From the NCBI GenBank assembly GCA_030680405.1, contig JAUXVT010000004.1, forward strand, positions 1 to 52,639: 52,639 nt of DNA. The letters run 5' to 3'. Position numbers and translations under genes: made by a program. Below are positions 1,775 through 51,830 of this stretch, in pieces (position 1 is the stretch's first letter; the number at the start of each line of letters is the position of its first letter). Under the pieces are notes generated by a model. The model did no database searches, had not been told where the DNA came from, and saw only the letters and a list, made by a program, of their open reading frames with translations. This DNA comes from Thiobacillus sp. (GTDB taxonomy: Bacteria; Pseudomonadota; Gammaproteobacteria; Burkholderiales; Thiobacillaceae).

Positions 1775-2734
1775 TCACCCCGAGCCTTGCTCGAATTCCG
1801 CCACCGCCTGCCGCAACCGGCTGGCTTCCTGCTCCGGACGCATCAGCCCACGACGCTGGCGGGCGTGGCTGAGCAGGTCGGCATAAAAATCGGGGTTGTT
1901 CTCGGCCATCGACAGCAGCCTGGCCAGCCGTCGTTCGTTGCCCACCGGAAAATAGCCGGGGTAGTCCTCGCCCAGCATGCCGATGTTGCCCGGCATGTGC
2001 GAGGCCAGCACCGGCACGTCGGCTGCCAGCGCCTCGCAGATCACGTTGGCGCCGCCTTCCATCACCGAGCTGATGACCATGAGGTGTGCGCGCGACAGGC
2101 GCTTTAGCACCGTCTTGTGCGGTACCTCGCCGGCCCAGTGCCAGCGCGGCAGCTTGTTTTGCGCCAGTTCTGCCGTTTCGGCCATGTCCTCGCTTAAGGC
2201 GCTGCCCAGATGCGTCACCTGGATTTGCGAATGTTCGGGCAGATAGGCCGTCGCCAGCGCCGCCCGGAAGGGGTCTTTTTCCGCGCGCAGGTGGCCGATC
2301 ACCAGCACCTCGAAAGTATGGGGAGGCGGGGGCAGGCGGGCAATGTCGGGCGACGATTGATAGATCACCCGCGTCCTGGAAATCAGATGCGCGGGCAATT
2401 CGTCGACGCCGCGCTCCTGCAGCACGATAAGGCGGTGCGCGAGCTCCAGCGCCTGCTGGGCGTCGCGGTCCTGGTGGATGTCGCGATACAGGTCGGTGCC
2501 GGTCAACGCCAGCAACAGCGGACGGCTCGGAAAGCGTTCTGCAAAGGCGCGGATCGAGGCAAAGCTGCGCCGCGCATGCAGCGCCAGCATCAGGTCGGCG
2601 TCGCGGCCATCCCATTCCACCTGCGTCCGCACCGTGTGCCCCGCTTCGCGCAGAAAGCGCGCCCAGCGCGCGGCCGTGTGCCAGTTGCCGTTGCGATGTT
2701 CGCGGCCGTAGGGTGTGATTAGGGCGATGCGCAT
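1775..2734 (-). CDS. senB: SenB-like (TIGR04348-type) glycosyltransferase
   Basis: A 319-residue GT-B fold, family-4-like glycosyltransferase. The N-terminus (MRIALITPYGREHRNGNWHT, then AARWARFLREAGHTV) is a Rossmann-type acceptor domain without signal peptide or membrane segment, so the protein is cytosolic. Family-typical stretches are LHARRSFASIRAF, LALTGTDLYRDI, VIGHLRAEKDPF, VMEGGANVICEALAADVPVL and GNIGMLGEDYPGYF. From memory of the family these match the selenosugar synthase SenB of selenoneine biosynthesis, which joins selenophosphate to UDP-GlcNAc. No senA (EgtB-like) or selD/senC gene lies within the window, so substrate assignment rests on sequence alone. Glycosyltransferase function is very likely; the SenB role is moderately likely. 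Confidence 0.68.
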   Translation of the reverse strand: MRIALITPYGREHRNGNWHTAARWARFLREAGHTVRTQVEWDGRDADLMLALHARRSFASIRAFAERFPSRPLLLALTGTDLYRDIHQDRDAQQALELAHRLIVLQERGVDELPAHLISRTRVIYQSSPDIARLPPPPHTFEVLVIGHLRAEKDPFRAALATAYLPEHSQIQVTHLGSALSEDMAETAELAQNKLPRWHWAGEVPHKTVLKRLSRAHLMVISSVMEGGANVICEALAADVPVLASHMPGNIGMLGEDYPGYFPVGNERRLARLLSMAENNPDFYADLLSHARQRRGLMRPEQEASRLRQAVAEFEQGSG

Positions 2735-5901: not shown

Positions 5902-6678
5902 TCAGGGATGCCGCAGGCGCGCCGCGATTTCCTCCACCGACATGCGGGTAGTGTCGAGGACGGCAAGGGCATGGCGTGCGAACAGCCGCTCGGCGGCGGC
6001 GAGTTCGTCGCGGCATTGTTGCAGGCTGGCGTAGCGGCTGTCGGGGTAGCGCGCCTGGCGGATGGTGGCGAGGCGTTCCGCCGACAGGGTCAAGGCGCGC
6101 AACTGGGGCAGGTGGGCGAGCAGGACGCCGGGCAGGCTGTGATGCGCAAGGTCGTCCGGCGTGAGCGGATAATTGGCAACGCGCAGACCGTATTGCAGGG
6201 CAAGGTAGAGCGCGCTGGGAGTTTTGCCGACGCGCGAGACCCCGACCAGGATCAGGTCGGCCTGATCGAGCCGCTGCGGCTGCAGGCCATCGTCCAGTGC
6301 CAGGCTGAAATTCACCGCGTCCATGCGCGATTCGTAGTTGTTCGTCATGCCGTGGGTGCGGCCGCCGCTGGGGGTGGCGGCCTGCCCCAGCGCGGTTTCC
6401 ACGGCGGGGGCGATGAGTTCGAAGACATCGAATAGACGGGCGCAACTCTCACGCAGGACGGCGCGCAGGGCAGGATCGGTCAAGGTGGAAAACACCAGTG
6501 CGCCGGGTGTGGCGGCAATCCGTGCGGCGGCGGCCTGCGCTTTCTCCGGGCTGTCGACGAAAGGGAGCACTATCAGACTAAACTCAAGTGCAGGAAACTG
6601 CGACAGCACGCTCTTCGCCACCGCTTCGACGGTGACGCCGGTGTGATCGGACACGCAGAAAACATAATGGCTTTTCAT
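5902..6678 (-). CDS. ppsR: PEP synthase regulatory protein (bifunctional kinase/pyrophosphorylase)
   Basis: A 258-residue DUF299/PPSR protein from the ATG at 6678-6676; a TTG five codons upstream is a weaker alternative. It opens [20 protein letters not shown], has the family helix [19 protein letters not shown], and carries the P-loop-like [20 protein letters not shown] plus [19 protein letters not shown]. The family inactivates PEP synthase by ADP-dependent phosphorylation of a threonine near the catalytic histidine, and reactivates it by Pi-dependent pyrophosphorylysis. Its target, ppsA, is the divergently transcribed neighbour, with only 9 bp between the two start codons, which strongly supports the assignment. 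Confidence 0.95.
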
Positions 6679-6687
6679 GGAGTGATT

Positions 6688-9030
<2,343 letters not shown>

Positions 9031-9275
9031 CGCCCGTTCTTGGGCGGGCAGCTTGCTCCTCTATGCTCATCACAGGATCGCACTGCTTCTGAGTCATGCG
9101 CCACCCATGCGCTGCCGCGCAAGACCGATGTGCCTTCATGCCGATCAAGAGCGGGAAAAACAAGCGCATCACCTGCCATGAACGGCCGCCATGATGGGCA
9201 AGGAAAAGATCCAAGAAAGTCGCCACCCCATGCTCAAAAGCCATTGAAGTTCCGGGAGTGGCATTGAGTAACAAC

Positions 9276-9314
9276 AAAGTTCAATAAAATATTTTTCATA
9301 TTTTATTGAACTTT
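9276..9314. repeat. Perfect 17-bp inverted repeat, AT-rich, upstream of mtoA
   Basis: AAAGTTCAATAAAATAT at 9276-9292 and its exact reverse complement at 9298-9314 are separated by TTTTC. The element could be a regulator-binding operator or an RNA hairpin. The A/T-only top of the stem and the absence of GC pairs make it a poor rho-independent terminator despite the short T-run at the end. It lies 183 bp before the mtoA start codon. Confidence 0.85.
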
Positions 9315-9362
9315 TTCGAGGAATATTTTCACCCTGTGTATATGATGGATACATAACCTGTC

Positions 9363-9385
9363 ATCTGGTATTTAAGGATCCAGAT
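9363..9385. repeat. Short inverted repeat in the mtoA leader
   Basis: ATCTGG (9363-9368) and CCAGAT (9380-9385) form a 6-bp dyad with an 11-bp spacer (TATTTAAGGAT). The spacing of about one and a half helical turns, centre to centre, suits a dimeric DNA-binding protein, but a chance dyad is possible. Confidence 0.4.
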
Positions 9386-9497
9386 AGATGGTTAATAAAT
9401 ACATGAATACATTGGGGGAGAGCGGCAGGTAGGTTTCCCCTCGGTTTTTGTAGTGGCTTTGATTGCCGTAAACACCGCAAATAAGGGGGGGACCCAT

Positions 9498-10502
9498 ATG
9501 AAAAGCATTAACATTTATGCATTGCGGCTGGCCGCGATGGTGTTGGCAGTTGGCCTTGGCTTCAGTATGTCCGCCAGTGCCGAGGAGGCGTCGGGTACAC
9601 CCTCAAACAAATTGGGTCCGGCAGACACGGTTCTGCGAGGTGATGCCAAGTGCACAGGCTGCCACGACAACTCCGACAACCCTCCGCCAACCATGCTCGG
9701 ATTGCACCCGGAGGTACTGGCCATCGGCAAGACCAAGCATGGCGTGGTGGGTGACACGCGGACGCCCACCTGCTCCAGCTGCCACGGCGAGAGCACCTCT
9801 CACATGAAGAAACCGGAGGCGGGCGGCAAACGGGCTTCTCCGGATCGCGTCTTCGGCAAGCACACCTCGAACACAGCGGGGGAACGCAGTGGCGCTTGCC
9901 TCACTTGTCACAAAGGGAGCGGGCGCACCCATTGGGCGGGCAGCCAACACCCCAGCAACGACGTGGCCTGTAGCTCTTGTCACAAGATTCACGCTGAGCA
10001 CGACACGGTGCGCGACAAGAAGACGCAACCCCAAGTCTGCTTCACTTGCCACAAGGATCAGCGCGCGGATAGCAAAAAAATATCGCACCACGCAATCGGT
10101 GAAGGCAAGGTGGCCTGTTCCGACTGCCACAACCCGCATGGCTCGGCCGGTCCCAAGTTGCTCAAGAAGAACAGCGTCAACGAAACCTGCTTCACTTGCC
10201 ACGCCGAAAAACGCGGTCCCTTCCTGTGGGAGCATCAGCCGGTGACCGAGGATTGCACCAACTGCCATACGCCGCACGGTTCCAACATCACGCCGCTGCT
10301 GAAATCACGTGCCCCCTTCCTGTGTTCGGAGTGCCACGACGGTCCCCACAACAGCAAGGTTCCCGCTGCAGGAAATGCCGCAGGCTTTCAAGGCGGGCTA
10401 ACCGCAGTGCCGAGCGAGAACTATACGGGCCGAGCCTGCCAGAATTGCCATTCCATGGTTCACGGTTCGAACCATCCTGCCGGCGCCCTGTTGCATCGCT
10501 AA
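9498..10502 (+). CDS. mtoA: Periplasmic decaheme c-type cytochrome, MtoA/MtrA/PioA/DmsE family
   Basis: A 334-residue cytochrome from the ATG at 9498, preceded by a G-rich ribosome site (AAGGGGGGGAC). A signal peptide covers about residues 1-28 (ending SMSASA). Ten CXXCH heme sites begin at residues 52, 92, 134, 158, 181, 207, 231, 253, 276 and 314, and many other histidines are present for bis-His ligation. Length and heme count match MtrA-type cytochromes, which insert into an outer-membrane barrel and form a heme wire from periplasm to cell surface. The matching porin gene follows 21 bp downstream. Family members work in Fe(II) oxidation (MtoA, PioA) or in metal/DMSO reduction (MtrA, DmsE); the MtoA name is chosen from the inferred betaproteobacterial context and is less certain than the family. 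Confidence 0.93.
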   Translation: MKSINIYALRLAAMVLAVGLGFSMSASAEEASGTPSNKLGPADTVLRGDAKCTGCHDNSDNPPPTMLGLHPEVLAIGKTKHGVVGDTRTPTCSSCHGESTSHMKKPEAGGKRASPDRVFGKHTSNTAGERSGACLTCHKGSGRTHWAGSQHPSNDVACSSCHKIHAEHDTVRDKKTQPQVCFTCHKDQRADSKKISHHAIGEGKVACSDCHNPHGSAGPKLLKKNSVNETCFTCHAEKRGPFLWEHQPVTEDCTNCHTPHGSNITPLLKSRAPFLCSECHDGPHNSKVPAAGNAAGFQGGLTAVPSENYTGRACQNCHSMVHGSNHPAGALLHR

Positions 10503-10523
10503 CCTGAAAATCGGGAGATAGTC

Positions 10524-12854
10524 ATGAAAATTCATAACAGAAAAATGCAGGTTAGCGTGCTGGGCCTTGCCGTACAATGTGCCTTGGCCGCGATGTTCGC
10601 GCTGCCCATGATGGCCCAAGCAGCAGACGCAACCGAAGCCGATGACGCCAACATGAGGCGCCCCTCCAACTATGTCGAGGTCGGCGCAGGGTATGTGTCG
10701 GAGGATTCTGCCAAGTTCGGCGAATACAACGGCCTGAATGATTCCGGTCCCTACCTCATCGGAAATTTCAGCGTGCGTGGCGGCGATAGTTACGAGGGCG
10801 GAGACGGGACCCTGCGCTGGGGCATCACCGGAACTGACCTCGGCACCACCTCCCGCGAACTTGGCGCAACAGTGGGCCACCAGGGCCAGTGGCACCTGAA
10901 CATCGGCTACGACGAGTTACGCCACAACATTTCGGATACCTACCAGACCCCGCAGCAGGGGAGCATGGGGGGGAACACTTTCACTTTCCCGGCAGATTTC
11001 GGCACGATTAACGGGCAATCCAACCCCAGCGCACGCGTCCTGAACGCGACCCAGTTGGGCGCTTTCCATACAACAGATGTCCACACCGACCGCAAGAACA
11101 CGTCCTTCGGTGCCGGCTACATCTTCAGCCCGAAATTAAGCCTCAAGTTTGATTACAACCACCTTGACCAGGACGGCGCCAAGCTGCTTGGCGTCGGGGC
11201 GCTGGGGGCACCAGCGACTACGGGCACCTGGCGTGCCGAAGCCGTTAATATCATCATGAATCCGACCAATTACAAAACGGATACTTTCAATCTGGCCTTG
11301 AACTGGGTCGGCGACAAGGGCCATCTGACGGGCAGCTACTTTGGCTCGATCTTCCGCGACGGCTATGACAGCGTGAGCGCGCAGAATGCCATGTTGAGTA
11401 ACACCAGCACCGCCGCTCCGGGTTTGTATCAAACAAACACGATGAGCACGGCCCCGGACAACAGTCTGCACCAGCTCAACCTGACTGGTGGCTATGCCTT
11501 CTCGTCGGCCACGAAACTGAGCGGGGGCTTGTCCTACGGCCGCAATACACAGGACAACAGTTACCTGAGCGGGATGCCTGAAATCTTTAGTGCACCTCGA
11601 TCGTCGCTTGATGGCAAAGTGATTACCACGCATGCCGATTTGAAGCTGACTCACCAGGCGACCCAGGATCTGGCGCTGAGCGCCGGGTTGAAATATAACG
11701 AGCGCGAAAACAAGTCGCCGTCCAATATGTACCAGTTCTGGGCAATCAACGGTGTCAGCACCAACCTTGCCAATGTGGATTACGCAGCGAATGCCCCCTA
11801 TAGCAATAGAAAGACGCAGTTCGAACTGGCCGGGGATTATCGGCTGAGCAAGGGGCAGAATGTACGGCTGGCCTATGAGCACGAGAGCATCAAGCGCTGG
11901 TGCGACAATTATGCAATCGCTGGCGCCAACTGCCTGGTCAATCCTGGCAACGACGAGGACAAGCTGGGTGTGACCTACCGGCTGAAAGCGCTTGATAACG
12001 TCAATTTCAATGCTGGCTATACTTTCTCCAAGCGCGGCGCGGACTTTGAAGGTAACGCCATTACACCGCTCGCCGGCCTTAATACTCCCAATCCAGATGA
12101 TGTTAACGCCCTGAACTATCCGGGATACATCGCCTATCCCTATGCCAAGCGCGACCAGCACCTGGTGAAAGCCGGCGTCAACTGGCAGGCTTCTGAAAAA
12201 TTGGATCTGGGCCTGAATGGCCGCTATGCGCGTGACGATTACAACGCGACGCTGGGCGTGCAGGACGGGCATACCGCAAGCGTCAATCTGGATGCCACGT
12301 ATGCCTACTCTGAAAATGGTAGCGTTTCTGCGTATGCGAGTTGGATGAACCGCGAGAGGAACCTTAAAGCCGGCGCTGCCGGAGCTGGCGCTGTTAATGA
12401 GGCTACCAGTTATGCCCTCTTGGTGGCGCCTGCCAATATCTGGACCAACCAACTTGAGGAAGATGGTAACGCCATCGGCCTGAACACCAAGCACAAACTG
12501 ATGGGAGGCAAACTGGAAATTGTCGGTGATGTGTCGTACTCGCTGGACAAGTCACACTATTCGACGCAGGTTCCGTATGTCGCCAACTGTGGCACCCCCG
12601 CAGTACTTACTTGCGGCAGTACGCCGGATATCAAGAACGAGTTGATCACGCTGAAACTCACCGGCACCTATGCGCTCGACAAGAGTGCCAAGGTGGGAGT
12701 GGGATACCTCTACCAACAGTTGAATAGCAACGACTATTACTACAATGCTTATCAGTATGGTTACACGCCGAACCGCGTGATGCCGACCAACGAGCAGGCG
12801 CCGAGCTACGAAGTCCATGTTGTCGCTGTAAGTTACATCTACAACTTCAAATAA
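10524..12854 (+). CDS. mtoB: Outer-membrane decaheme-associated porin, MtoB/MtrB/PioB family
   Basis: A 776-residue outer-membrane beta-barrel. GGGAG precedes the ATG at 10524. The signal peptide ends near residue 33 (ALPMMAQA), followed by family-typical SAKFGEYNGLNDSGPYLIGN, WGITGTDLGTTSRELGATVG and LNIGYDELRHNISDTYQTPQ. The rest is a long series of amphipathic strands ending in VVAVSYIYNFK, with an aromatic residue near the C-terminus as barrel proteins have. The family sheaths the decaheme cytochrome, and adjacency to that gene confirms the pair. The mature N-terminus lacks the CXXC motif known from Shewanella MtrB; the few cysteines are in the middle (WCDNY, NCLVNP) and late (NCGTP, TCGSTP). 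A strong terminator follows. Confidence 0.9.
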   Translation: MKIHNRKMQVSVLGLAVQCALAAMFALPMMAQAADATEADDANMRRPSNYVEVGAGYVSEDSAKFGEYNGLNDSGPYLIGNFSVRGGDSYEGGDGTLRWGITGTDLGTTSRELGATVGHQGQWHLNIGYDELRHNISDTYQTPQQGSMGGNTFTFPADFGTINGQSNPSARVLNATQLGAFHTTDVHTDRKNTSFGAGYIFSPKLSLKFDYNHLDQDGAKLLGVGALGAPATTGTWRAEAVNIIMNPTNYKTDTFNLALNWVGDKGHLTGSYFGSIFRDGYDSVSAQNAMLSNTSTAAPGLYQTNTMSTAPDNSLHQLNLTGGYAFSSATKLSGGLSYGRNTQDNSYLSGMPEIFSAPRSSLDGKVITTHADLKLTHQATQDLALSAGLKYNERENKSPSNMYQFWAINGVSTNLANVDYAANAPYSNRKTQFELAGDYRLSKGQNVRLAYEHESIKRWCDNYAIAGANCLVNPGNDEDKLGVTYRLKALDNVNFNAGYTFSKRGADFEGNAITPLAGLNTPNPDDVNALNYPGYIAYPYAKRDQHLVKAGVNWQASEKLDLGLNGRYARDDYNATLGVQDGHTASVNLDATYAYSENGSVSAYASWMNRERNLKAGAAGAGAVNEATSYALLVAPANIWTNQLEEDGNAIGLNTKHKLMGGKLEIVGDVSYSLDKSHYSTQVPYVANCGTPAVLTCGSTPDIKNELITLKLTGTYALDKSAKVGVGYLYQQLNSNDYYYNAYQYGYTPNRVMPTNEQAPSYEVHVVAVSYIYNFK

Positions 12855-12880
12855 TTTCGATTGCATGCCGTGAAAACATG

Positions 12881-12909
12881 GGGGGCAAAGTTTTTGCCCC
12901 CAATTTTTT
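12881..12909 (+). terminator. Rho-independent terminator after mtoB
   Basis: GGGGGCAAA (12881-12889) pairs perfectly with TTTGCCCCC (12893-12901) across a 3-base loop and is followed by AATTTTTT. This is one of the two strongest terminators in the window. It should separate mtoAB transcripts from the downstream cytochrome gene, at least in part. Confidence 0.9.
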
Positions 12910-13054
12910 ACATTCTGATGAGAAGCAAAAACGACAGCGGAAACGACCCACGGACCATCAAGGAAAAATTGATTTCTTGGCTTGAACAAGGAATCCTATG
13001 CAGATGGCGTGTAGTATTTGTAACGAGTCAACAACAATCAAGAGGGGGCCAGCT

Positions 13055-13624
13055 ATGCGTTACCGTGTCGTATATGGAGTGATTTTGGCGGGCCTGATGT
13101 GCTCGGCCCATGCCGCGGACAAGATCGAGGAAGTGGCCGAAACCTGCAGCGGCTGCCACGGCGCCAATGGCGTTTCGGAAAACGCGAACATCCCCTCCAT
13201 CGGCGGCCAGCCCGAGTCATACCTCAAGAAAATTTTGCTGGAATGGAAGTCCGGGGTGCGCCATTCCGAGACCATGGAAAGCCTGATTAAGGAATATTCA
13301 ATTGAGCAGATAGGTGCGCTGGCGGCGTACTACGCCAAGAAGCCCTGGACGCCCGTGGCGCAAAAGACCGACGCCAACCTGGTGAAGCTTGGCGAGGATG
13401 CGACCAGGGGCTGCGCCGGCTGCCATGGCGACACAGGCGTCGCCAACGATGTCGAGACGCCGAATCTCAACGGCCAATGGGCCGAATATCTGGAAATGGA
13501 TATGCTGAAGTTTCGCAAAGGCAGCATGACGGTGTCCAATCCGAAAATGCTCAAGGCCCTCAAGAAACTGAGTACCGAAGAACTCAAGGCCGCCGCCGCG
13601 TTTTTCGCCAGCCAGGGGAAATAA
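13055..13624 (+). CDS. Periplasmic diheme cytochrome c, c4-like
   Basis: A 189-residue protein from the ATG at 13055, preceded by AGAGGGGG. A signal peptide (about 1-21, ending CSAHAAD) leads into two homologous cytochrome c domains. The first has CSGCH at 31-35 and the second CAGCH at 120-124; each has a candidate axial methionine (SETM near 73, and MTV or PKM near 158-165). The first motif context, ETCSGCHGANGVSENANIPS, and the two-domain plan match the cytochrome c4 family of soluble or loosely membrane-bound electron carriers. It lies between two strong terminators, directly after mtoAB and before ccm, so it is a natural candidate to carry electrons between MtoA and an inner-membrane complex. 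That partnership is inferred. Confidence 0.85.
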   Translation: MRYRVVYGVILAGLMCSAHAADKIEEVAETCSGCHGANGVSENANIPSIGGQPESYLKKILLEWKSGVRHSETMESLIKEYSIEQIGALAAYYAKKPWTPVAQKTDANLVKLGEDATRGCAGCHGDTGVANDVETPNLNGQWAEYLEMDMLKFRKGSMTVSNPKMLKALKKLSTEELKAAAAFFASQGK

Positions 13625-13741
13625 GAAGATCGGCATCAGCCATTTTCCCGGTCTGGATGTCCTCTGGGTTCTTGCTGTCGCCAAGTATCCGAAGATGATG
13701 TCGCCGACGCCGAACGGAAAATAATATCCTGCAGAGACCCG

Positions 13742-13776
13742 GGGGAATCGGTGCAAGCCGCATTCCCCTTTTTTTT
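13742..13776 (+). terminator. Rho-independent terminator after the c4-like cytochrome
   Basis: GGGGAAT (13742-13748) pairs with ATTCCCC (13762-13768), extended inward by CGG/CCG around a small loop with one bulged base, and is followed by eight T residues (13769-13776). It isolates the mto/cytochrome block from the ccm operon. Confidence 0.92.
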
Positions 13777-13893
13777 TGTATGCTGTGGAAGTGGTTTGGC
13801 CGCCTCGCAGTGAGGTTAATCTGCCTGGTTACGCGGACATGAGTGTTAAATGTCGCAGTTTCAGATAAGCTCCACGTTGATGTTTCACGATTG

Positions 13894-14523
13894 ATGACGC
13901 CAAGTATGCTTTCTGTCCATGAGCTGGCCTGCGAACGCGGCGAGCGTCTGTTGTTCAAGAATCTGGGTTTCGAGTTGGGGAATGGCGAGGCTTTATTGGT
14001 GCGGGGGGGCAATGGTCGCGGCAAGACCAGTCTGTTGCGTATCCTCTGCGGCCTGTCTGTGCCTGCCACCGGCGTTGTGCGCTGGCGTGGCGAATCCATA
14101 AGCAAGGCACACGAGCAATATGGCCGGGAAATGGCCTACATCGGCCATGCCAACGGCATCAAGGACGATCTCACGCCTATGGAGAACCTGCGGATCGCGG
14201 CCGCGCTGGGCGGTCGCGTACTGGATGACGCGACCGCCACGGCCGCGCTGTGTCAGGTGGGCCTGTCACGTTGCGTGGATTTGCCCGCTCGCGTGTTGTC
14301 CTTTGGCCAGCGCCGGCGCGTTGCGCTGGCAGGACTGATGACGGCTGGCGCGCTGCTGTGGATTCTCGACGAACCCCTGACCGGTCTCGACGTCGATGGG
14401 GTCGCGATGGTCGAGTGGATGATCCACGATCACGTCTTGGCCGGTGGCTTGGCGATCATGACCACCCATCAAATGCTGATGCTTGACGGCTTGACGCCCA
14501 AAACTCTGTCGGTCGGGGACTGA
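13894..14523 (+). CDS. ccmA: Heme exporter ATP-binding protein CcmA
   Basis: A 209-residue ABC ATPase, the energy-coupling part of the CcmABCD complex that releases holo-CcmE. Counting from the ATG at 13894, Walker A is at about 38-46 (GGNGRGKTS, slightly unusual in having Arg where Ala is common), the signature LSFGQRR at 135-141 and Walker B LLWILDEP at about 154-161. The ATG at 13906 (MLSVHELACERGERLLFKNL) is an equally good start and matches homologues more closely; no Shine-Dalgarno favours either. It begins the ccm operon. It is separated from ccmB by about 190 bases of repeats, which is odd because the later ccm genes mostly abut or overlap. Confidence 0.93.
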   Translation: MTPSMLSVHELACERGERLLFKNLGFELGNGEALLVRGGNGRGKTSLLRILCGLSVPATGVVRWRGESISKAHEQYGREMAYIGHANGIKDDLTPMENLRIAAALGGRVLDDATATAALCQVGLSRCVDLPARVLSFGQRRRVALAGLMTAGALLWILDEPLTGLDVDGVAMVEWMIHDHVLAGGLAIMTTHQMLMLDGLTPKTLSVGD

Positions 14524-14531
14524 GCGTGGTT

Positions 14532-14624
14532 GTTGACGCTTTAGCGGCTTTACTGCATGAATGTTGCCGCTTTAGCAGCTTTAGAGCGTGGTTGTTGCCG
14601 ATTCATCGGCTTTACAACCATGGC
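14532..14624 (+). repeat. Three 31-bp imperfect tandem repeats between ccmA and ccmB
   Basis: Units begin at 14532, 14563 and 14594, exactly 31 bp apart. The conserved first 21 bases follow GTTGMCGCTTTAGCRGCTTTA, and in each unit the middle can form a small hairpin (CGCTTTAGCG, GCTTTAGC, CCGATTCATCGG). The last unit runs into the 26-bp repeats that follow. Confidence 0.8.
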
Positions 14625-14691
14625 CTCCTCCTTGCGGGGACAACCACGGCCTCCTCCTCGCGGGGACAGCCACGGCCTACCCCTTGCGGGT
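14614..14691 (+). repeat. Three 26-bp tandem repeats between ccmA and ccmB
   Basis: Units at 14614-14639, 14640-14665 and 14666-14691 share the core CCACGGCCTCCTCCTTGCGG with a few substitutions; the third unit is the most diverged. They sit directly upstream of ccmB (start 14717). No coding frame through them resembles a protein, so they look like an untranslated expansion inside the operon. Confidence 0.85.
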
Positions 14692-14716
14692 GGAGCGTGC
14701 GTGCGCATGAATTTCG

Positions 14717-15385
14717 ATGCTGAAATTCCTGTTCACCGTCATTCGCCGCGATGTGTTGCTGGCAGCGCGGCGACGCGGCGACTGGCTGACCGCGCAATTC
14801 TTCTTTGTCATGGTGGTAAGCATGTTTCCGCTCGGCGTCGGGCCGGAGCCGGGTATGCTGCGGACCATTGGCCCCGGGGTCGTATGGGTGGCGGCGTTGC
14901 TGGCCTCGCTGCTGTCGCTGGGCCGTCTGTTCGCCGACGATTATCGCGACGGCACCCTGGAACAAATGCTGCTGTCGCCTTATCCCAACACCCTGCTGGC
15001 CTTGGGAAAGGCGATCGCGCACTGGATCATCAACGGGATTCCGCTGCTGGTTATTGCGCCGGTGCTGGGGATTCAATTCAATTTGCCGGCCGAGGCACTG
15101 TGGATTCTCGTCCTGTCGCTGGCCATCGGGACGCCGATCCTGTCCCTGCTTGGCAGCATCGGCGCCGCATTGACACTGGGCTTGCGTGGCGGCGGCGCGC
15201 TGGTCACCTTGCTGATCCTGCCGCTTTACGTGCCCGCTTTGATCTTCGGTGCGGGCGCGGTGGAGGGCGTGCTCTCCGGCACCGGTTCGGAAGCGCATCT
15301 TTCACTGCTCGGGGCGTTTTTGATGATGTCGCTGTTGCTGGCACCCTGGGTGAGCGCAATGGCACTTAAAGTTTCTGTGGAGTAG
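14717..15385 (+). CDS. ccmB: Heme exporter membrane protein CcmB
   Basis: A 222-residue integral membrane protein with six predicted helices. It opens MLKFLFTVIRRDVLLAARRR and contains the family segments LASLLSLGRLFADDYRDGTL, EQMLLSPYPNTLLALGKAIA and GTPILSLLGSIGAALTLGLR. CcmB is the permease-like partner of CcmA. The immediate upstream sequence is the tandem-repeat block, and no strong ribosome site is seen (GGTGGAG lies about 20 bases upstream). Downstream, ccmC starts 4 bp after the stop. Confidence 0.94.
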   Translation: MLKFLFTVIRRDVLLAARRRGDWLTAQFFFVMVVSMFPLGVGPEPGMLRTIGPGVVWVAALLASLLSLGRLFADDYRDGTLEQMLLSPYPNTLLALGKAIAHWIINGIPLLVIAPVLGIQFNLPAEALWILVLSLAIGTPILSLLGSIGAALTLGLRGGGALVTLLILPLYVPALIFGAGAVEGVLSGTGSEAHLSLLGAFLMMSLLLAPWVSAMALKVSVE

Positions 15386-15389
15386 GCAT

Positions 15390-16124
15390 TTGAATTTGTA
15401 CCACTACGCTTCGCCATCGACCTTTTATCCCCTGGCCGGGAAACTGGTCCCGTGGTTTGCGGCCCTGGCGTTCATCCTGACGACGGCAGGCCTCTACATC
15501 AGCTTCTTCATGGCGCCCACGGACTTCCAGCAGGGCGAGGGCTATCGCATCATCTTCATCCATGTGCCAGCAGCCTGGATGTCGATGTTCATCTACGTCG
15601 TCATGGCCTTCTGGTCTGCCATTGGCCTGGCCTGGAATACCCGTCTGTCGTTCGTCATGGCGCGCGCGCTGGCGCCCACCGGCGCCATGTTCACCTTCGT
15701 CGCGCTGTGGACCGGCGCGTTCTGGGGCAAGCCGATGTGGGGCGCGTGGTGGGTGTGGGACGCTCGCCTCACCTCGGAACTGATCCTGCTGTTTCTTTAT
15801 GTCGGCGTCATGGCCCTGCAGGCCGCGATCGATGACCCACGCCGTTCCGACCGTGCCGGCGCGCTGCTCAACCTGGTCGGCGTCATCAACGTGCCGATCA
15901 TCTACTTCTCGGTCAAATGGTGGAACACCCTGCATCAGGGTTCCTCGCTCAGTCTCACCCGCGCGCCGTCGATGGCGCAGACCATGCTCTGGGGCATGCT
16001 GATCTTGGCGCTCGCCGCCTGGATGTACACCATTGCCGTCGCCCTGGCCCGCGCACGCACGCTGATCCTCGAACGCGAGCGGCGGACCGAATGGGCGCGC
16101 GCCCAGCTGGAGGGGCAGGCATGA
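15390..16124 (+). CDS. ccmC: Heme-handling protein CcmC
   Basis: A 244-residue, six-helix membrane protein that presents heme to CcmE. The tryptophan-rich WWD motif is at about 117-127 (WGAWWVWDARL), flanked by the two conserved heme-ligand histidines at about H58 (FIHVPAAW) and H182 (NTLHQGSS). The start codon is TTG at 15390, set by GGAG at 15379-15382; no in-frame ATG lies near, and MNLYHYASPSTFYPL aligns with homologues. The stop codon overlaps the ccmD start (ATGA). Confidence 0.95.
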   Translation: MNLYHYASPSTFYPLAGKLVPWFAALAFILTTAGLYISFFMAPTDFQQGEGYRIIFIHVPAAWMSMFIYVVMAFWSAIGLAWNTRLSFVMARALAPTGAMFTFVALWTGAFWGKPMWGAWWVWDARLTSELILLFLYVGVMALQAAIDDPRRSDRAGALLNLVGVINVPIIYFSVKWWNTLHQGSSLSLTRAPSMAQTMLWGMLILALAAWMYTIAVALARARTLILERERRTEWARAQLEGQA

Positions 16125-16294
16125 ACTGGGAAAGCTGGCAGGCCTTCTGGGCCATGGGCGGCTACGGCCTTTATGTCTGGGGCTCCTTCGGGATGACGCT
16201 GCTCTGCATCGTGGGTGAAATCGGGCTGTTGCGCCGCCATCGCCTGCAGGTCTGGCGACGACTCAAGCGCATGAAATCATGGGATCCGCAATAA
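16121..16294 (+). CDS. ccmD: Small heme exporter protein CcmD
   Basis: A 57-residue protein with one membrane helix (about 18-38: [20 protein letters not shown]) and a basic cytoplasmic tail ([13 protein letters not shown]). The start [20 protein letters not shown] is typical of CcmD, which holds CcmE to CcmABC. Its ATG overlaps the ccmC stop in ATGA, so translation is coupled. It ends 19 bp before ccmE. Confidence 0.93.
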
Positions 16295-16313
16295 TCCATT
16301 ATCTGGAAATAGC

Positions 16314-16766
16314 ATGGCAATGAAACCACGTCACAGAAAACTCGCCTTGATCGTCCTGGTCGTCGCTGCCCTTGGGGTCGCGGTGGCGCTGGTGCTCAAT
16401 GCATTCAACAGCAATCTGGTGTTCTTTTTCTCCCCCACCCAGGTCGCCAACGGGGAAGCACCGACCAGCCGCGCCTTCCGCATCGGCGGCCTGGTCGAGG
16501 CGGGCAGCATCCGGCGCGAGGCAGACGGCCTCACCACGCGTTTCGTCGTCACCGATACCGCCAAATCGATGCCGGTGACCTACACCGGCATCCTGCCCGA
16601 CCTGTTCAAGGAAGGAAAAGGAGTGGTGGCCGAAGGCAGGCTCGGTCCCGACGGACTCTTCAGCGCCACCCAGGTGCTGGCCAAGCACGACGAGAACTAC
16701 ATGCCGCCGGAAGCCGCCAGTGCCATCGAACAGGCGCAGAAGGCTCAACTGACGGTGGTGGAATGA
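16314..16766 (+). CDS. ccmE: Periplasmic heme chaperone CcmE
   Basis: A 150-residue protein with an N-terminal membrane anchor (about 9-30) and an OB-fold periplasmic domain. The covalent heme-binding motif is intact: His125 within [12 protein letters not shown], with Tyr129 in the HxxxY arrangement. Family stretches [20 protein letters not shown] and [11 protein letters not shown] are present. It accepts heme from CcmC and passes it to CcmF/H. A hairpin lies between it and ccmF. Confidence 0.95.
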
Positions 16767-16778
16767 TTTTGATATCCC

Positions 16779-16809
16779 AAGACGCCGAACCGGTTTGGAT
16801 CGGCGTCTT
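16779..16809 (+). promoter_or_regulatory. Hairpin between ccmE and ccmF
   Basis: AAGACGCCGA (16779-16788) pairs perfectly with TCGGCGTCTT (16800-16809) over an 11-base loop. Only three T residues close the right arm, so it would be a leaky terminator at best. An RNA processing or stability element that changes the ratio of ccmA-E to ccmF-I products fits its mid-operon position. Confidence 0.6.
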
Positions 16810-16833
16810 TCCAGGCAATAACAAGGAGAAAGC

Positions 16834-18810
16834 ATGATCCCTGAACTCGGCCATTTCGCCCTGATTATCGCGCTGCTGCTGGCGCTGACCCAGGCCATCC
16901 TGCCGCTCTATGGCGCGCAGCGCGGCAACCTCACGCTGATGGCCGTGGCGCGGCCCGCCGCGCAGGGGCAATTCGTGTTCGTTGCCCTCGCCTTCGCCTG
17001 CCTCGCTTATTCCTTCGTCACCAACGATTTCTCGGTCGAGAATGTGGCGCGCAACTCGTTCTCGCAATTGCCCGAGGTCTATCGCTTCACCGCCACCTGG
17101 GGCTCGCATGAAGGCTCGCTGCTCTTGTGGGTGCTGATCCTCGGCTTCTGGAGTACCGCGGTGTCGGTGTTCTCGCGCCACCTGCCGGAAGACATGGCGG
17201 CGCGCGTGATCGGCGTCATGGGGCTGATCTCGGTCGGCTTCCTCGCCTTTCTGCTCACCACCTCCAATCCGTTTGAACGCTTGCTGCCCGCCGCCATGGA
17301 TGGCAACGACATGAACCCGCTGCTGCAGGACTGGGGCATGATCATCCATCCGCCGATGCTGTATATGGGCTACGTCGGCTTCGCCGTCGCCTTCGCCTTT
17401 GCCATCGCCGCGCTGCTCTCGGGCAAGATGGACGTCGCCTGGGCGCGTTGGTCGCGTCCCTGGACCACGGTGGCCTGGGCCTTCCTGACACTGGGCATCA
17501 TGCTGGGGGCCTGGTGGGCCTATCGCGAACTGGGCTGGGGCGGCTGGTGGTTCTGGGATCCCACCGAGAACGCCTCCTTCATGCCGTGGATCGCCGGCAC
17601 CGCGCTGATCCATTCTCTTGCCGCCACTGAAAAGCGCGGCGCGTTCAAGGCCTGGACCGTGCTGCTGGCGCTGGTGGCGTTCTCGCTGTCGCTGCTCGGC
17701 ACCTTCCTGGTGCGCTCCGGTGTGCTGTCCTCAGTTCACGCCTTCGCCACCGATCCGGCGCGCGGCGCCTTCATCCTGGGCTTCCTCACCGTGGTGATCG
17801 GCGGCTCGCTCGCACTCTACGCCTGGCGCGCGCCGAAGATGATCACCGGCAGCGGCTTCACCTGGTTCTCGCGCGAGTCGCTGTTGCTGGCCAACAATGT
17901 GATCCTGATCGCGGCGCTGGGGGCGGTGCTGCTGGGCACGCTGTATCCGCTGTTCATGGACGCCATGGGGCTGGGCAAGATCTCCGTCGGCCCGCCTTAT
18001 TTCAATGCGGTGTTCGTGCCGCTGATGGCGCCGGCGTTGTTCCTCATGGGCATTGGCCCGCTCGCGCGCTGGAAGGAAGCCAGCCTGCCGGACATCGTCA
18101 CGCGCATGAAGTGGGCGCTGGGGGTGGCGCTCGCCACCGGCCTGCTGCTGCCGTTGACGCTGGACGGTTTCAAACCCTGGGCGGCGCTTGGCTTCTTCCT
18201 CGCGGCCTGGATCGCCCTGGCGGTGCTGGCGGCGTTGCTTGACCGCATCAAGTACAGCCAGGGCAAGCTGCCGCAGAAACTGGCGGCGCTGCCGCGCGGC
18301 TTCTGGGGCATGCTGCTGGCGCACTTCGGCATGGCGGTCGGCATCGCCGGCATCGCCGTGGTCGCCAACTACTCGACCGAGCGCGACGTGCGTATGGAGG
18401 TGAATAGCTACGCCGAGCTCGCCGGCTACACTTTCACCTTCCGCGGTACCACCGCGCACGATGGCCCCAATTACCGCGCCGCCCGCGGCACGCTGGAAGT
18501 CAGCAAGGATGGCAGGCCGGTGGCCACGCTGCATCCGGAGAAGCGCGTCTACAACGCTTCCGCGATGGCGATGACCGAGGCCTCCGTGCATCCGAATATC
18601 TTCCGCGACATCTACGTCGCCATGGGCGAACAGCTCGATGACCAGGGCGCCTGGACCGTGCGCCTGTTCCACAAGCCGTTCATCAACTGGCTCTGGTTCG
18701 GTGCCCTGTTCATGGTGGTGGGGGGCTTCATGGCGGCGTCGGACAAGCGTTACCGCATCGCGCTCAGGCGCAGCGAAGTGCCAAAGAACATTGCGGCGCA
18801 GGGGGCCTGA
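16834..18810 (+). CDS. ccmF: Cytochrome c heme lyase CcmF
   Basis: A 658-residue, multi-helix membrane protein that joins heme from CcmE to apocytochrome CXXCH sites together with CcmH. AAGGAGA precedes the ATG at 16834. The WWD motif (WGGWWFWDPTENASFMPW) is at about residues 230-250 and is flanked by conserved histidines (ATWGSHEGSLLLWV, IHPPMLYMGYVGF, LIHSLAATEKRGAF). The large C-terminal periplasmic domain has YTFTFRGTTAHDGPNYRAAR, and the C-terminal helix contains WLWFGALFMVVGGFMAASDK. Length is that of the family. ccmG starts 3 bp after the stop. Confidence 0.96.
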   Translation: MIPELGHFALIIALLLALTQAILPLYGAQRGNLTLMAVARPAAQGQFVFVALAFACLAYSFVTNDFSVENVARNSFSQLPEVYRFTATWGSHEGSLLLWVLILGFWSTAVSVFSRHLPEDMAARVIGVMGLISVGFLAFLLTTSNPFERLLPAAMDGNDMNPLLQDWGMIIHPPMLYMGYVGFAVAFAFAIAALLSGKMDVAWARWSRPWTTVAWAFLTLGIMLGAWWAYRELGWGGWWFWDPTENASFMPWIAGTALIHSLAATEKRGAFKAWTVLLALVAFSLSLLGTFLVRSGVLSSVHAFATDPARGAFILGFLTVVIGGSLALYAWRAPKMITGSGFTWFSRESLLLANNVILIAALGAVLLGTLYPLFMDAMGLGKISVGPPYFNAVFVPLMAPALFLMGIGPLARWKEASLPDIVTRMKWALGVALATGLLLPLTLDGFKPWAALGFFLAAWIALAVLAALLDRIKYSQGKLPQKLAALPRGFWGMLLAHFGMAVGIAGIAVVANYSTERDVRMEVNSYAELAGYTFTFRGTTAHDGPNYRAARGTLEVSKDGRPVATLHPEKRVYNASAMAMTEASVHPNIFRDIYVAMGEQLDDQGAWTVRLFHKPFINWLWFGALFMVVGGFMAASDKRYRIALRRSEVPKNIAAQGA

Positions 18811-18813
18811 ATC

Positions 18814-19335
18814 ATGAAACGCTGGCTGCCCCTTGTCCTCTTCGTCATCCTCGTCGGTTTCTTCGCCAAGGGCCTGTTCCTCAACCCGCGCGAAGTGCCG
18901 TCGCCGTTTATCGGCCGCACTGCGCCCGCCTTCACGCTACCGCTGGTGGGTGACGCGAACGCCGCCTTCAGCCCGGCCGAGATGGAGGGTCACGTCTGGA
19001 TGCTCAACGTCTGGGCGCCCTGGTGCGTGTCGTGTCGCCAGGAGCACGGGTTCCTGATGCAGTTGGCACAGACCAAGGTCATCCCCATTGTCGGCCTCAA
19101 CTGGAAGGACAAGGCTCGCGAGGCGGCGTCGCTGCTCGCGCGTACCGGCAGCCCCTATGTGGCCGTGCCGGAGGATCTCGACGGCCGCGTCGGCATCGAC
19201 TACGGCGTCACCGGCACCCCCGAGACCTACCTCATCGACCAGGCGGGCATCGTGCGGCTGAAGCACATTGGCCCGATCAGCCCCGAGGTGTGGCAGACCA
19301 AGTTCGAGCCGAAACTCAAGGAGCTGGGCGCATGA
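18814..19335 (+). CDS. ccmG: Periplasmic thioredoxin-like reductant CcmG (DsbE)
   Basis: A 173-residue protein with an N-terminal anchor (about 4-22) and a thioredoxin fold. The redox motif is C71-V-S-C74 within NVWAPWCVSCRQEHGF; the cis-proline is at about 136 (GVTGTPETYLID), and an acidic active site (VPEDLDGRVGIDYG) is present as in other DsbE proteins. It reduces apocytochrome heme-site cysteines before ligation. The stop overlaps the ccmH start in ATGA. Confidence 0.95.
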   Translation: MKRWLPLVLFVILVGFFAKGLFLNPREVPSPFIGRTAPAFTLPLVGDANAAFSPAEMEGHVWMLNVWAPWCVSCRQEHGFLMQLAQTKVIPIVGLNWKDKAREAASLLARTGSPYVAVPEDLDGRVGIDYGVTGTPETYLIDQAGIVRLKHIGPISPEVWQTKFEPKLKELGA

Positions 19336-19814
19336 AACATTTCCTGCTGGCCATGCTGCTGGCTTTTTCTCTGCCGGTGCTCGCCAATGAACCTGCCAGC
19401 GGGCCGACCAGTGCGCCGAAAGAGGCGCTGCCCATCGCGGACGATCCTGTCATCGAGCAGCGCATGGTCAATCTAGCGGAAGACCTGCGCTGTCTGGTCT
19501 GCCAGAACGAATCCCTGGCCGGCTCGCACGCCGAACTGGCGGAAGACCTGCGGCGCGAGATCCGCACGCAGATGAAGGCCGGCAAGGATGACAAGCAGGT
19601 GATCGCCTATCTCACCGAACGCTACGGCGACTTCGTGCTGTATCGTCCGCCGTTCAAGCCGGTGACTTGGCTGCTCTGGCTCGGCCCGCTGCTGTTCCTG
19701 GGTATTGGCGGCGGCGCTTGGTACATGACGCTGCTGCGTCGCCGCGCCGTGCCAGCCGCTCCAGTGGACGAAAAAAAGCGCGCCGCCGCCGCTCAACTTT
19801 TGGAAGAAAAATGA
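19332..19814 (+). CDS. ccmH: Cytochrome c maturation thiol protein CcmH
   Basis: A 160-residue protein: signal peptide 1-18 (ending LPVLA), a three-helix periplasmic domain with the LRCxxC motif (C54 and C57 in DLRCLVCQNESLAGSHAELA), the family sequence VIAYLTERYGDFVLYRPPFK, and one C-terminal helix at about 115-135. It corresponds to the N-terminal half of E. coli CcmH; here the TPR half is a separate gene, ccmI. The start overlaps the ccmG stop and its own stop overlaps the ccmI start, both as ATGA, so the three genes are translationally coupled. Confidence 0.95.
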   Translation: MKHFLLAMLLAFSLPVLANEPASGPTSAPKEALPIADDPVIEQRMVNLAEDLRCLVCQNESLAGSHAELAEDLRREIRTQMKAGKDDKQVIAYLTERYGDFVLYRPPFKPVTWLLWLGPLLFLGIGGGAWYMTLLRRRAVPAAPVDEKKRAAAAQLLEEK

Positions 19815-21100
19815 ACCTGTTCTGGACCGTCTCCCTGTTTTGGATTGCCGCCGTCGTCTGCATCGCTCTCGCCTTGGCCTTCGTGCTGCCCACGCTGCTG
19901 CGCGCGCGGACTGTAGCGGGCAAGGCCGTGCGACGCGACGTCAACATTGCCGTTTATCGTGACCAGATGAAGGAAATCGAGGCCGACCGCTCCAATGGCC
20001 TGATTTCGGAAGCGCAGTTCCAGACCGCCAAGCTGGAACTGGAAGCCCGCCTGGCGGACGATGCCCTGACCCTGGACGAGTCCCCCGAACCCAGCCATGT
20101 CGGCAGCCGAAAGTTGGGTTACACCCTGGGCGCCGTTCTGCCCGTCGCCGCTTTCGGCCTCTATTTCTGGCTGGGTAATCCCACGTCCCTGATTGCCATC
20201 GCGGATGCGCAATCCGGTCCGGCCCAACCCGCCATGACCGCTGCCCCAGGTGAGCATGATTTCACGAAGCTGATCCAGAAAATAGAAGAAAAGACCCAGG
20301 CCTATCCCGATGACGGCGAGGCTTGGACCATGCTGGCCAAGACCTACGCGGCGATCGAGCGCTGGCCTGAAGCCCTGCAGGCTTTTGAAAAGGCGATCAA
20401 GCTGTTGCCGCAGGATGCCTCGGTGCTGTCCGGGTACGCCGAGGCTCTGGCCATCACCAACAACCGTGTGCTGACGGGCAGGCCCATGGAGTGGGTCCGG
20501 AAGGCGCTGGAGATCGATCCCGAAGACATGAAGGGTCTGGAACTGGCCGGCATCAATGCCCATCAGGAAAAGAACTTCGCCCAAGCCGGCAATTATTTCA
20601 AGCGCTTGCATCTTTTGCTGCCGCCGGAATCGCCCTATGCCCAGGACATCCTGGCTGCGCAGAAAGAAGCCGAACGTCTGGCCCAAACCGGCATGACCGG
20701 TCTGGGCAATCCGGCCAATCCGCCGCCTGCCGACGACAAGACGGCGTCGGTAGCCCCGGGCGCCGCCATCATGGGCAGCATCGACATCGCCCCCGCGCTC
20801 AAATCCAGGCTCGCTGATACGGACGTGCTTTTTCTGTTCGCGCGCACGGGCCAGGGCGGTCCGCCGGTGGCAGCCATCCGTGCGAGCGCCAGCCAGCTGC
20901 CGCTGGAATTTGAGCTGGACGACAGCACGGCGATGAACCCCGGCAACACGCTCTCGCAGCACAAGCAGGTGATGCTGGTGGCCCGTGTTTCAAAATCCGG
21001 CAACCCGATGGCCCAGCCGGGCGATTTGGAGGGCACCGTCGCCAACGTGAAGGTGGGTGCGACCGGTGTGAAAATCATGATCGATCAGACCCGACCCTGA
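19811..21100 (+). CDS. ccmI: Cytochrome c maturation TPR protein CcmI
   Basis: A 429-residue protein from the ATG at 19811, which overlaps the ccmH stop. Two N-terminal helices (about 6-28 and 110-125) bracket a cytoplasmic helical loop (RDVNIAVYRDQMKEIEADRS). TPR units follow (AWTMLAKTYAAIERWPEALQ, then AFEKAIKLLP and later ELAGINAHQEKNFAQAGNYF), then a C-terminal domain (GSIDIAPALKSRLADTDVLF) like that of NrfG/CcmI proteins. It binds the C-terminal part of apocytochromes and delivers them to CcmF/H. It ends the operon, and pyrG has its own promoter just downstream. Confidence 0.93.
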   Translation: MNLFWTVSLFWIAAVVCIALALAFVLPTLLRARTVAGKAVRRDVNIAVYRDQMKEIEADRSNGLISEAQFQTAKLELEARLADDALTLDESPEPSHVGSRKLGYTLGAVLPVAAFGLYFWLGNPTSLIAIADAQSGPAQPAMTAAPGEHDFTKLIQKIEEKTQAYPDDGEAWTMLAKTYAAIERWPEALQAFEKAIKLLPQDASVLSGYAEALAITNNRVLTGRPMEWVRKALEIDPEDMKGLELAGINAHQEKNFAQAGNYFKRLHLLLPPESPYAQDILAAQKEAERLAQTGMTGLGNPANPPPADDKTASVAPGAAIMGSIDIAPALKSRLADTDVLFLFARTGQGGPPVAAIRASASQLPLEFELDDSTAMNPGNTLSQHKQVMLVARVSKSGNPMAQPGDLEGTVANVKVGATGVKIMIDQTRP

Positions 21101-50628: not shown

Positions 50629-50650
50629 TGCGTTTTTCCGTGGAAGGTCT

Positions 50651-50723
50651 GAGCCGCTTGAACGCACTGCCTGATGATGCCAGCACAATGTGCTCAAGCG
50701 GCTCGCCGGGAGATTCGGCGAGC
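50651..50723 (-). promoter_or_regulatory. Two overlapping, mutually exclusive hairpins between ccoP and ccoG
   Basis: GAGCCGCTTGA (50651-50661) pairs perfectly with TCAAGCGGCTC (50694-50704), enclosing a small GCACAATGTGC dyad (50683-50693). GCTCGCCG (50701-50708) pairs with CGGCGAGC (50716-50723). The two structures share GCTC at 50701-50704, so only one can form fully. There is no strong T-run. Attenuation or mRNA processing that lowers ccoG relative to ccoNOQP is the likely role. Confidence 0.55.
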
Positions 50724-50732
50724 GCCCTTTAC

Positions 50733-51653: not shown

Positions 51654-51823
51654 TGCTTGTCTCCTTGTTTGGCTGGCTTGTCTTTTCCTTCTTCGTCGAA
51701 GGGCAGCTTGCCGGCGTCCTCAAAACGCTGCTTGTTGCCCTTGCTGTAGGCCCACCAGACGATGCCGATGAACACCACGATGAAGACGACCGTGACGATG
51801 CCGCTGATGGTTCCGCTGTCCAT
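51650..51823 (-). CDS. ccoQ: Cbb3 oxidase small subunit CcoQ
   Basis: A 57-residue single-helix protein: MDSGTISGIVTVVFIVVFIG then IVWWAYSKGNKQRFEDAGKL, PFDEEGK and a charged tail. The helix followed by SKxNKxRFEDAxxLPF is the CcoQ signature. It stabilises CcoP in the complex. It starts 7 bp after the ccoO stop and overlaps ccoP by 4 bp. Confidence 0.94.
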   Translation of the reverse strand: MDSGTISGIVTVVFIVVFIGIVWWAYSKGNKQRFEDAGKLPFDEEGKDKPAKQGDKQ

Positions 51824-51830
51824 GCCGGTT

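Follow-up and report, generated by a model that had tools for sequence, protein, structure and literature searches.

The 52,639-nucleotide stretch of DNA analysed here (the window) makes up the entire contig C33 of a metagenome-assembled genome (MAG) of a Thiobacillus species, which comprises 2.67 Mb in 80 contigs and is 87% complete and 3.8% contaminated. The window carries adjoining genes for a periplasmic decaheme cytochrome of the MtoA/MtrA type and an outer-membrane β-barrel of the MtoB/MtrB/PioB type, assigned by sequence to the MtrAB/MtoAB/PioAB family of porin–cytochrome conduits. Their identity as an outer-membrane conduit, proposed in the initial annotation of this DNA, is held with very high confidence because family profiles, conservation of heme ligands, a barrel model and two phylogenetic trees agree on it and no MtrC/OmcA-family match was found. 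The conduit is of a known family and occurs in a genus for which no report of MtoAB was found in the literature consulted (one may exist in print), with a variant set of partner genes and at an informative genomic site, which is empty in one relative (G105).

The decaheme cytochrome and its β-barrel partner

The cytochrome gene mtoA (positions 9498–10502, forward strand) encodes 334 residues with a signal-peptide-like N-terminus, judged by eye, and exactly ten CXXCH motifs, at residues 52, 92, 134, 158, 181, 207, 231, 253, 276 and 314. It is followed after 21 bp by the 776-residue barrel gene mtoB (10524–12854, forward strand); the initial annotation, which had described a secreted ten-CXXCH protein in front of an MtrB-type porin, was right in coordinates, lengths and spacing. 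Ten heme motifs within 801 bp of a single frame are not expected by chance, and a codon-pattern scan of the whole genome for CXXCH returned 226 matches against 100 with a reversed control pattern. The cytochrome matches TIGR03508, which NCBIfam names ‘DmsE family’, at 277.7 bits (cut-off 192.2), and the barrel matches TIGR03509 at 485.5 bits (cut-off 240.05) and PF11854 at 477.6 bits (E 9e-143, cut-off 23). The best solved relatives of the two proteins are chains A and B of the Shewanella baltica Mtr complex 6r2q, the cytochrome matching chain A at 232.5 bits.

In a 20-sequence alignment that includes the window, each of the ten heme motifs is conserved, and a further ten histidines outside them never vary (residues 81, 102, 151, 165, 198, 214, 246, 260, 284 and 322). 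Their number fits that of the hemes, and they are likely to be the second ligands of ten bis-histidine hemes. The barrel, modelled from a 44-row alignment (mean pLDDT 81.7, pTM 0.78), has 26 strands with at least eight residues and matches MtrB (6r2q_B) with an E value of 5e-43 and TM-scores of 0.77 by query and 0.91 by target; the next-best solved structure gave an E value of 1e-10 and TM-scores of 0.35 and 0.40. These likenesses in fold and sequence are to the MtrCAB systems of Shewanella and Vibrionaceae, from which the window differs in three respects. Its barrel has cysteines at residues 19, 460, 470, 689 and 697 and hence no N-terminal CXXC, a motif that matters in Shewanella MtrB. No surface decaheme protein of the MtrC/OmcA type is encoded in the window, in line with the initial annotation, and the 87%-complete genome gave no TIGR03507 match at E ≤ 0.01. 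Finally, a branch with a support of 98 separates the window MtoA from the MtrA of S. baltica and Photobacterium.

That branch belongs to one of two trees, for MtoA and MtoB, which were quick, with one kind of support (SH-aLRT for MtoB) and midpoint rooting. Seven duplicate loci, short matches, matches with fewer than nine heme motifs and barrels of at most 550 residues were left out, and MtrCAB was anchored by a Photobacterium MtrA that adjoins a 10-heme gene and a barrel gene, the sole near-full-length one among 14 matching plasmid records. The window MtoB shares a 35-row clade (SH-aLRT 100) with barrels of Sideroxydans, Gallionellaceae, Rhodocyclales, Polaromonas and methanotrophs (Crenothrix, Methylococcaceae); the five other Thiobacillus barrels fall outside it. 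The window MtoA lies in a 37-row clade (support 98) that likewise contains no other Thiobacillus copy. The comparison with Mto types that the initial annotation had proposed as a check thus places the window with Sideroxydans and Gallionellaceae copies, apart from the MtrA proteins of S. baltica and Photobacterium. The nearest relative of both proteins, L037, comes from another genus of the family (69% identity for MtoA and 72% for MtoB). Barrels above the family cut-off occur in 19 of the family’s 117 genomes and in 6 of 56 Thiobacillus genomes, the other five Thiobacillus barrels being 24–30% identical to that of the window. Because the trees set the pair away from the other Thiobacillus copies, it was not simply inherited within the genus.

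Genomes of Crenothrix and other methanotrophs (loci L056, L057, L064 and L076) carry mtoA of the window’s clade; the first three have mtoB too, with monoheme genes on both sides, and the contig of L076 ends before mtoB is reached. Elsewhere in the source genome (contig C54, L032 346–2256) a 636-residue multiheme protein gave the second TIGR03508 match, at 52.8 bits and below the cut-off; it was rejected as a second MtrA-type decaheme, being a different protein.

The downstream diheme cytochrome and the direction of electron flow

The gene that follows mtoB (13055–13624, forward strand) encodes a periplasmic diheme cytochrome of 189 residues from the ATG at 13055. No flavoprotein gene adjoins it; its neighbour is ccmA. 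In a tree of 13 dihemes it falls in an eight-row group (support 95/95) holding four copies linked to flavocytochrome c sulfide dehydrogenase (FCSD): in L168, L033, L176 and L177, and so in four of the five other Thiobacillus members of the group, the diheme gene stands directly before the FCSD flavoprotein gene. Its scores against solved structures are slightly higher for cytochrome c4 (72 bits) than for the flavocytochrome subunit (65 bits). Because the tree favours the FCSD-linked dihemes and the structure score slightly favours cytochrome c4, the protein is named no further than putative FccA/c4 type. Of the neighbours listed in the initial annotation, the ccm operon and the cbb3 oxidase are real, whereas its ‘c4-like carrier’ sits in this mostly FCSD-linked group and has a hairpin in front of its gene. 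Identity with PdsA, another diheme found beside an MtrAB-type pair, was rejected: the window protein reaches 103.6 bits, where the PdsA cut-off is 330, and stands apart from the PdsA-like group in the tree, whose members in L038, L039 and L042 occur with mtrCAB-like genes (10-heme gene, mtrAB and diheme together).

Between the barrel and diheme genes lies an intrinsic-terminator-like hairpin of nine pairs with a T run (12881–12909, forward strand), and at the same place in L037, reading by eye shows another inverted repeat, which differs in its stem and is likewise accompanied by a T run. Across positions 8900–14200, five terminator-like sites were found, below the shuffle mean of 6.8, and no sigma-70-like promoter site, where shuffles give 2.9.

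Among the 34 clade relatives of the pair, 25 had at least 800 bases 3′ of mtoB and were used to count the gene that follows it; eight others had too little 3′ sequence, and L083, which has two pairs, was set aside (no heme gene directly follows its first mtoB before the second pair). Heme genes in the neighbourhoods of relatives were called by motif count, mostly CX2-4CH. The following gene encodes a tetraheme protein in 12 relatives, all 12 of the NapC/NirT family, a monoheme protein in four, a nine-heme protein in three and a diheme protein in one, L037. The window cluster thus has a diheme in place of the usual inner-membrane tetraheme of the NapC/ImoA type, as does its nearest relative. 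No member of the NapC/NrfH family (PF03264, E ≤ 0.01) was found at the locus or in the 87%-complete genome. The nine-heme genes (L053, L054 and L131) were considered as MtrC and rejected: L131 and L053, scanned with NCBIfam, do not match TIGR03507. L053 and L054 give a cytochrome b561 match below cut-off, L131 gives none, and the nine-heme proteins may reside in the inner membrane as proteins of the Cytbc/MtoC type.

Like MtoAB of Sideroxydans lithotrophicus ES-1, the window has a decaheme cytochrome and an MtrB-type porin and no MtrC. The single ES-1 cluster contains MtoD, MtoA, MtoB, ImoA/CymA and a second monoheme cytochrome, and MtoA, MtoB, ImoA and the second monoheme are enriched on magnetite (PMC12016527). 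The protein reported to interact with MtoA as well as ImoA is PmcA and not MtoD (PMC13390432). The Sideroxydans MAG copies L065 and L080, which group with the window MtoB, stand in clusters of monoheme, mtoA, mtoB and NapC-family tetraheme genes, matching the ES-1 content (PMC12016527). The window cluster, in contrast, has the FccA/c4-type diheme and neither the tetraheme ImoA/CymA nor a monoheme MtoD/PmcA-type carrier: among frames longer than 80 residues, the only other CXXCH proteins of the window are this diheme and two cbb3 subunits. With PioABC of Rhodopseudomonas palustris, compared by gene content and not by PioA/B sequence, the window shares a porin–decaheme pair, the lack of a surface multiheme protein and a downstream gene for a periplasmic carrier. 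That carrier is a diheme cytochrome here and the high-potential iron–sulfur protein PioC in R. palustris; directly downstream of the window pair there are the diheme and ccm genes and no such protein, for which the rest of the genome was not searched.

In the explanation that we favour, and consider rather probable as a whole, an Mto-type conduit would carry electrons inward by way of the diheme. The decaheme cytochrome would thread the barrel and take electrons through the outer membrane, as homology and the model suggest; electrons from Fe(II) or a mineral would then pass to the FccA/c4-type diheme, a step suggested by the gene order in two genera; and the diheme would hand them to the cbb3 oxidase or to some other acceptor of high potential, NADH being formed through reverse electron transport. 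The adjacent ccm genes would probably help to attach the hemes of the conduit. A possible end of the path lies outside the cluster, 36–40 kb from the pair at the contig end, where genes for a CcoG/FixG-type protein and the cbb3 subunits ccoP and ccoO are found (49210–52436, reverse strand). The genome has three molybdopterin-domain (Molydop_binding) matches, all on other contigs: an arsenite oxidase large subunit, NarG and a weakly PhsA-like protein, which we take to be SoeA-like. A gene for the RuBisCO large subunit is also present. Because of the NarG, arsenite oxidase, RuBisCO and cbb3 genes, we infer an inward direction, and uptake of electrons from Fe(II) or minerals and their passage to oxygen or nitrate would be the best and most economical reading. 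Oxidation of Fe(II) or minerals stays conditional, since one published tree gives no clear separation of MtoA from MtrA (PMC10734462) and MtoA and PioA make up no function-specific clade (PMC8805035).

Several points weigh against this explanation. The source genome is a MAG at 87% completeness, which makes all absences provisional, and MtoC/Cytbc-type proteins and Cyc2 were not among the proteins sought; the relative with the empty site, G105, is likewise a MAG, 79% complete and 6% contaminated. The trees do not include ES-1, PioA or DmsE sequences. Besides the window, the tie between diheme and pair comes from L037, a second full case, and from L163, in which the barrel is partial and diverged; the dihemes of the three loci are united at 79/78 only. 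Given the hairpin and T run in the window, and the similar arrangement in L037, the diheme gene may be transcribed apart from mtoB. In five of the 25 clade relatives no heme gene follows mtoB within 2.5 kb, so that the window is not alone in lacking a partner. The direction of flow is not readable from sequence, and MtrCAB pathways also have diheme shuttles, PdsA being a characterised member (PMC8805035).

The diheme could instead be left over from a flavocytochrome c as a subunit that plays no part in the conduit, in which case MtoAB would use some other periplasmic carrier. Its homologues in front of FCSD flavoprotein genes and the terminator-like hairpin would fit this, as would the location of the genome’s single above-cut-off FCSD flavoprotein elsewhere, on contig C77, next to a monoheme protein (another match, on C22, does not reach the cut-off). 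The diheme gene has an intact reading frame, however, the order mtoA–mtoB–diheme is kept in L037 of another genus, and L163 has the order diverged barrel–diheme–ccm, which leaves the leftover explanation rather doubtful.

Outward flow through the same conduit, with the diheme feeding periplasmic electrons to the decaheme and on to Fe(III), humics or a partner, is unlikely. In a published tree MtoA is not clearly separated from MtrA, and flow may be reversible (PMC10734462); the role of PdsA in MtrCAB pathways and the joint occurrence of 10-heme gene, mtrAB and diheme gene in L038, L039 and L042 also speak for it. Against it stand the genome’s lack of MtrC/OmcA-family and NapC/CymA-type matches, and the position of the diheme outside the PdsA-like group, far below the PdsA cut-off. 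A DmsEF-like conduit serving an extracellular terminal reductase, compared by gene content as the trees hold no confirmed DmsE/F sequence, is highly improbable: the ‘DmsE family’ label of the cytochrome is not decisive, being borne by Gallionellaceae MtoA clusters too (PMC10734462), and a DMSO reductase, which the initial annotation had named as what might explain the pair, is not among the three molybdopterin matches of the 87%-complete genome.

The preferred reading, inward flow by way of the diheme, bears on nitrate-dependent Fe(II) oxidation in Thiobacillus denitrificans, for which no enzyme is known and no targeted cytochrome gene proved important (PMC3753534). The type strain, ATCC 25259, oxidises Fe(II) with nitrate and yet has no mtoA, pioA or cyc2 homologues (PMC3753534), so that trait and genes are not tied to each other in the genus. 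In a Thiobacillus with MtoAB, nitrate reductase and RuBisCO, genetics could test directly whether this trait is conferred or improved by the conduit, and a gene set lacking a NapC-type quinone protein offers an alternative to the ImoA/CymA route that can be tested.

The interval between ppsA and the ccm operon

The gene order in the window is senB, a GGDEF-EAL gene, PPSR, ppsA, mtoA, mtoB, the diheme gene, the ccm operon, pyrG and eno. The left flank of the block is ppsA (6643–9030, forward strand), encoding a PEP synthase-type protein, and the right flank is a System I cytochrome c maturation operon (13843–21100, forward strand), which starts about 220 bp after the diheme gene. Within it, ccmB, ccmC, ccmE, ccmF and ccmI were recognised by profile, and ccmA and ccmG by position together with an ABC domain and a redoxin domain, respectively; ccmD and ccmH were not sought. 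In G105, ppsA and ccmA are adjacent. DNA homology with the window runs up to 9021 and begins again at 13907, so that a block of about 4.9 kb (9022–13906, forward strand) is absent from G105. Because of this empty site in one relative, the block of mtoA, mtoB and diheme gene would have been placed between ppsA and the ccm operon by recombination. SenB of selenoneine biosynthesis (window 1775–2734, reverse strand; TIGR04348, 442 bits, cut-off 300) is encoded near ppsA in G105 too.

Other relatives hold different genes in this interval. L037 has ppsA, mtoA, mtoB and the diheme gene in the window’s order, with ccm not on the contig, and L035, from the same genus as L037, has monoheme, mtoA, mtoB and tetraheme genes between ppsA and ccmA in the opposite orientation. 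The interval of L047 and L168 contains a NapB-like gene, a different mtrAB, a DUF302 gene, flavocytochrome c genes and a multiheme gene of the cytochrome c552 family, and that of L176 and L177, which has no mtrAB, is occupied by flavocytochrome c genes together with a multiheme gene of seven motifs, in L176 shown to be of the c552 family. In L163 a partial, diverged barrel is followed by a 68% identical diheme gene and ccm, and the contig ends before ppsA could appear. L045 (genome G100) has two copies of ccmA ahead of ccmB, first an intact one and then a degenerate one with three recognisable pieces; monoheme, tetraheme and mtrAB genes stand between the two, an arrangement that looks as if the set had been inserted with partial duplication.

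Window-type ccmA (63–89% identity) was found in 19 other Thiobacillus genomes. It has ppsA on its left in four of them (G105, G065, G099, and G074 via L047), and multiheme genes stand beside the ccm genes in seven, upstream in six and inside the operon in one. For the remaining 12, between 2.8 and 13.9 kb of upstream sequence is available, and none of it contains a multiheme gene. A universal ppsA–ccm site is unsupported by these counts; the operon has several surroundings, and an exchange site is documented for few genomes only. We therefore offer only tentatively, as a somewhat unlikely extension, that in part of Thiobacillus the ppsA–ccm interval is an exchange site for respiratory cytochrome sets, and that the conduit has here been wired to a diheme of sulfide-dehydrogenase descent, electrons from outside bypassing the quinone pool to reach the high-potential end. 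If so, a sulfur bacterium would have turned mineral oxidiser through cassette exchange, and unrelated conduits and other multiheme sets would come and go beside heme-attachment genes in a genus most of which has System II and no System I. Related genomes in which the same site is empty or filled show how such conduits are gained.

Cytochrome c maturation and conduits across Thiobacillus

CcmA occurs in 26 of 56 Thiobacillus genomes and the System II protein ResB in 51, the source genome included. Since four of the five genomes with no ResB match (G066, G074, G098 and G105) have CcmA, System I may be the only maturation system in some lineages. With genome relatedness and MAG gaps uncorrected, CcmA was found in 12 of 13 genomes that have a conduit porin of either type and in 14 of 43 that have none (Fisher p 2e-4); the corresponding counts are 5/6 and 21/50 by mtrB alone (p 0.09), and 7/7 and 19/49 by the large porin alone (p 0.003).

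At least two ccm genes lie near 17 of 80 mtrA loci from named genomes. In the stretch available, ppsA is near one of the 80, that of Thiobacillus itself, and pyrG, eno and PPSR are near none. Adjoining mtrCAB and ccmA-I genes have been described in six complete cases, one of them seemingly native to its site, and read as mostly, or possibly, travelling together (Baker et al. 2022, PMC8805035). The window resembles these cases in that System I genes adjoin a conduit. New beyond this linkage are the Mto type without MtrC, the genus Thiobacillus, the empty site and the different cytochrome sets found at one place in a few relatives.

The large-porin gene is followed, after 0 to 25 bases, by a second, diverged type of ccm genes in each of the six genomes examined at this point (loci L180–L183, L185 and L186; also L187–L192); the porin occurs in a seventh, G085. 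In G063 and G080, where the cluster is complete in the stretch, it encodes proteins with 24 and 45–47 heme motifs (CX2-4CH). These clusters look like the PCC3 conduit type (PMC5566968).

On contig C60 of the source genome (L184, 6.4 kb), a second ccm operon starts at ccmA; its CcmA is 51% identical to that of the window and about equally far (49–54%) from both Thiobacillus ccm types. On contig C17 of the same genome (L133), the gene for the arsenite oxidase large subunit (TIGR02693, 934 bits) has an adjacent gene on the opposite strand for a sigma-54-type response regulator, recognised by eye.

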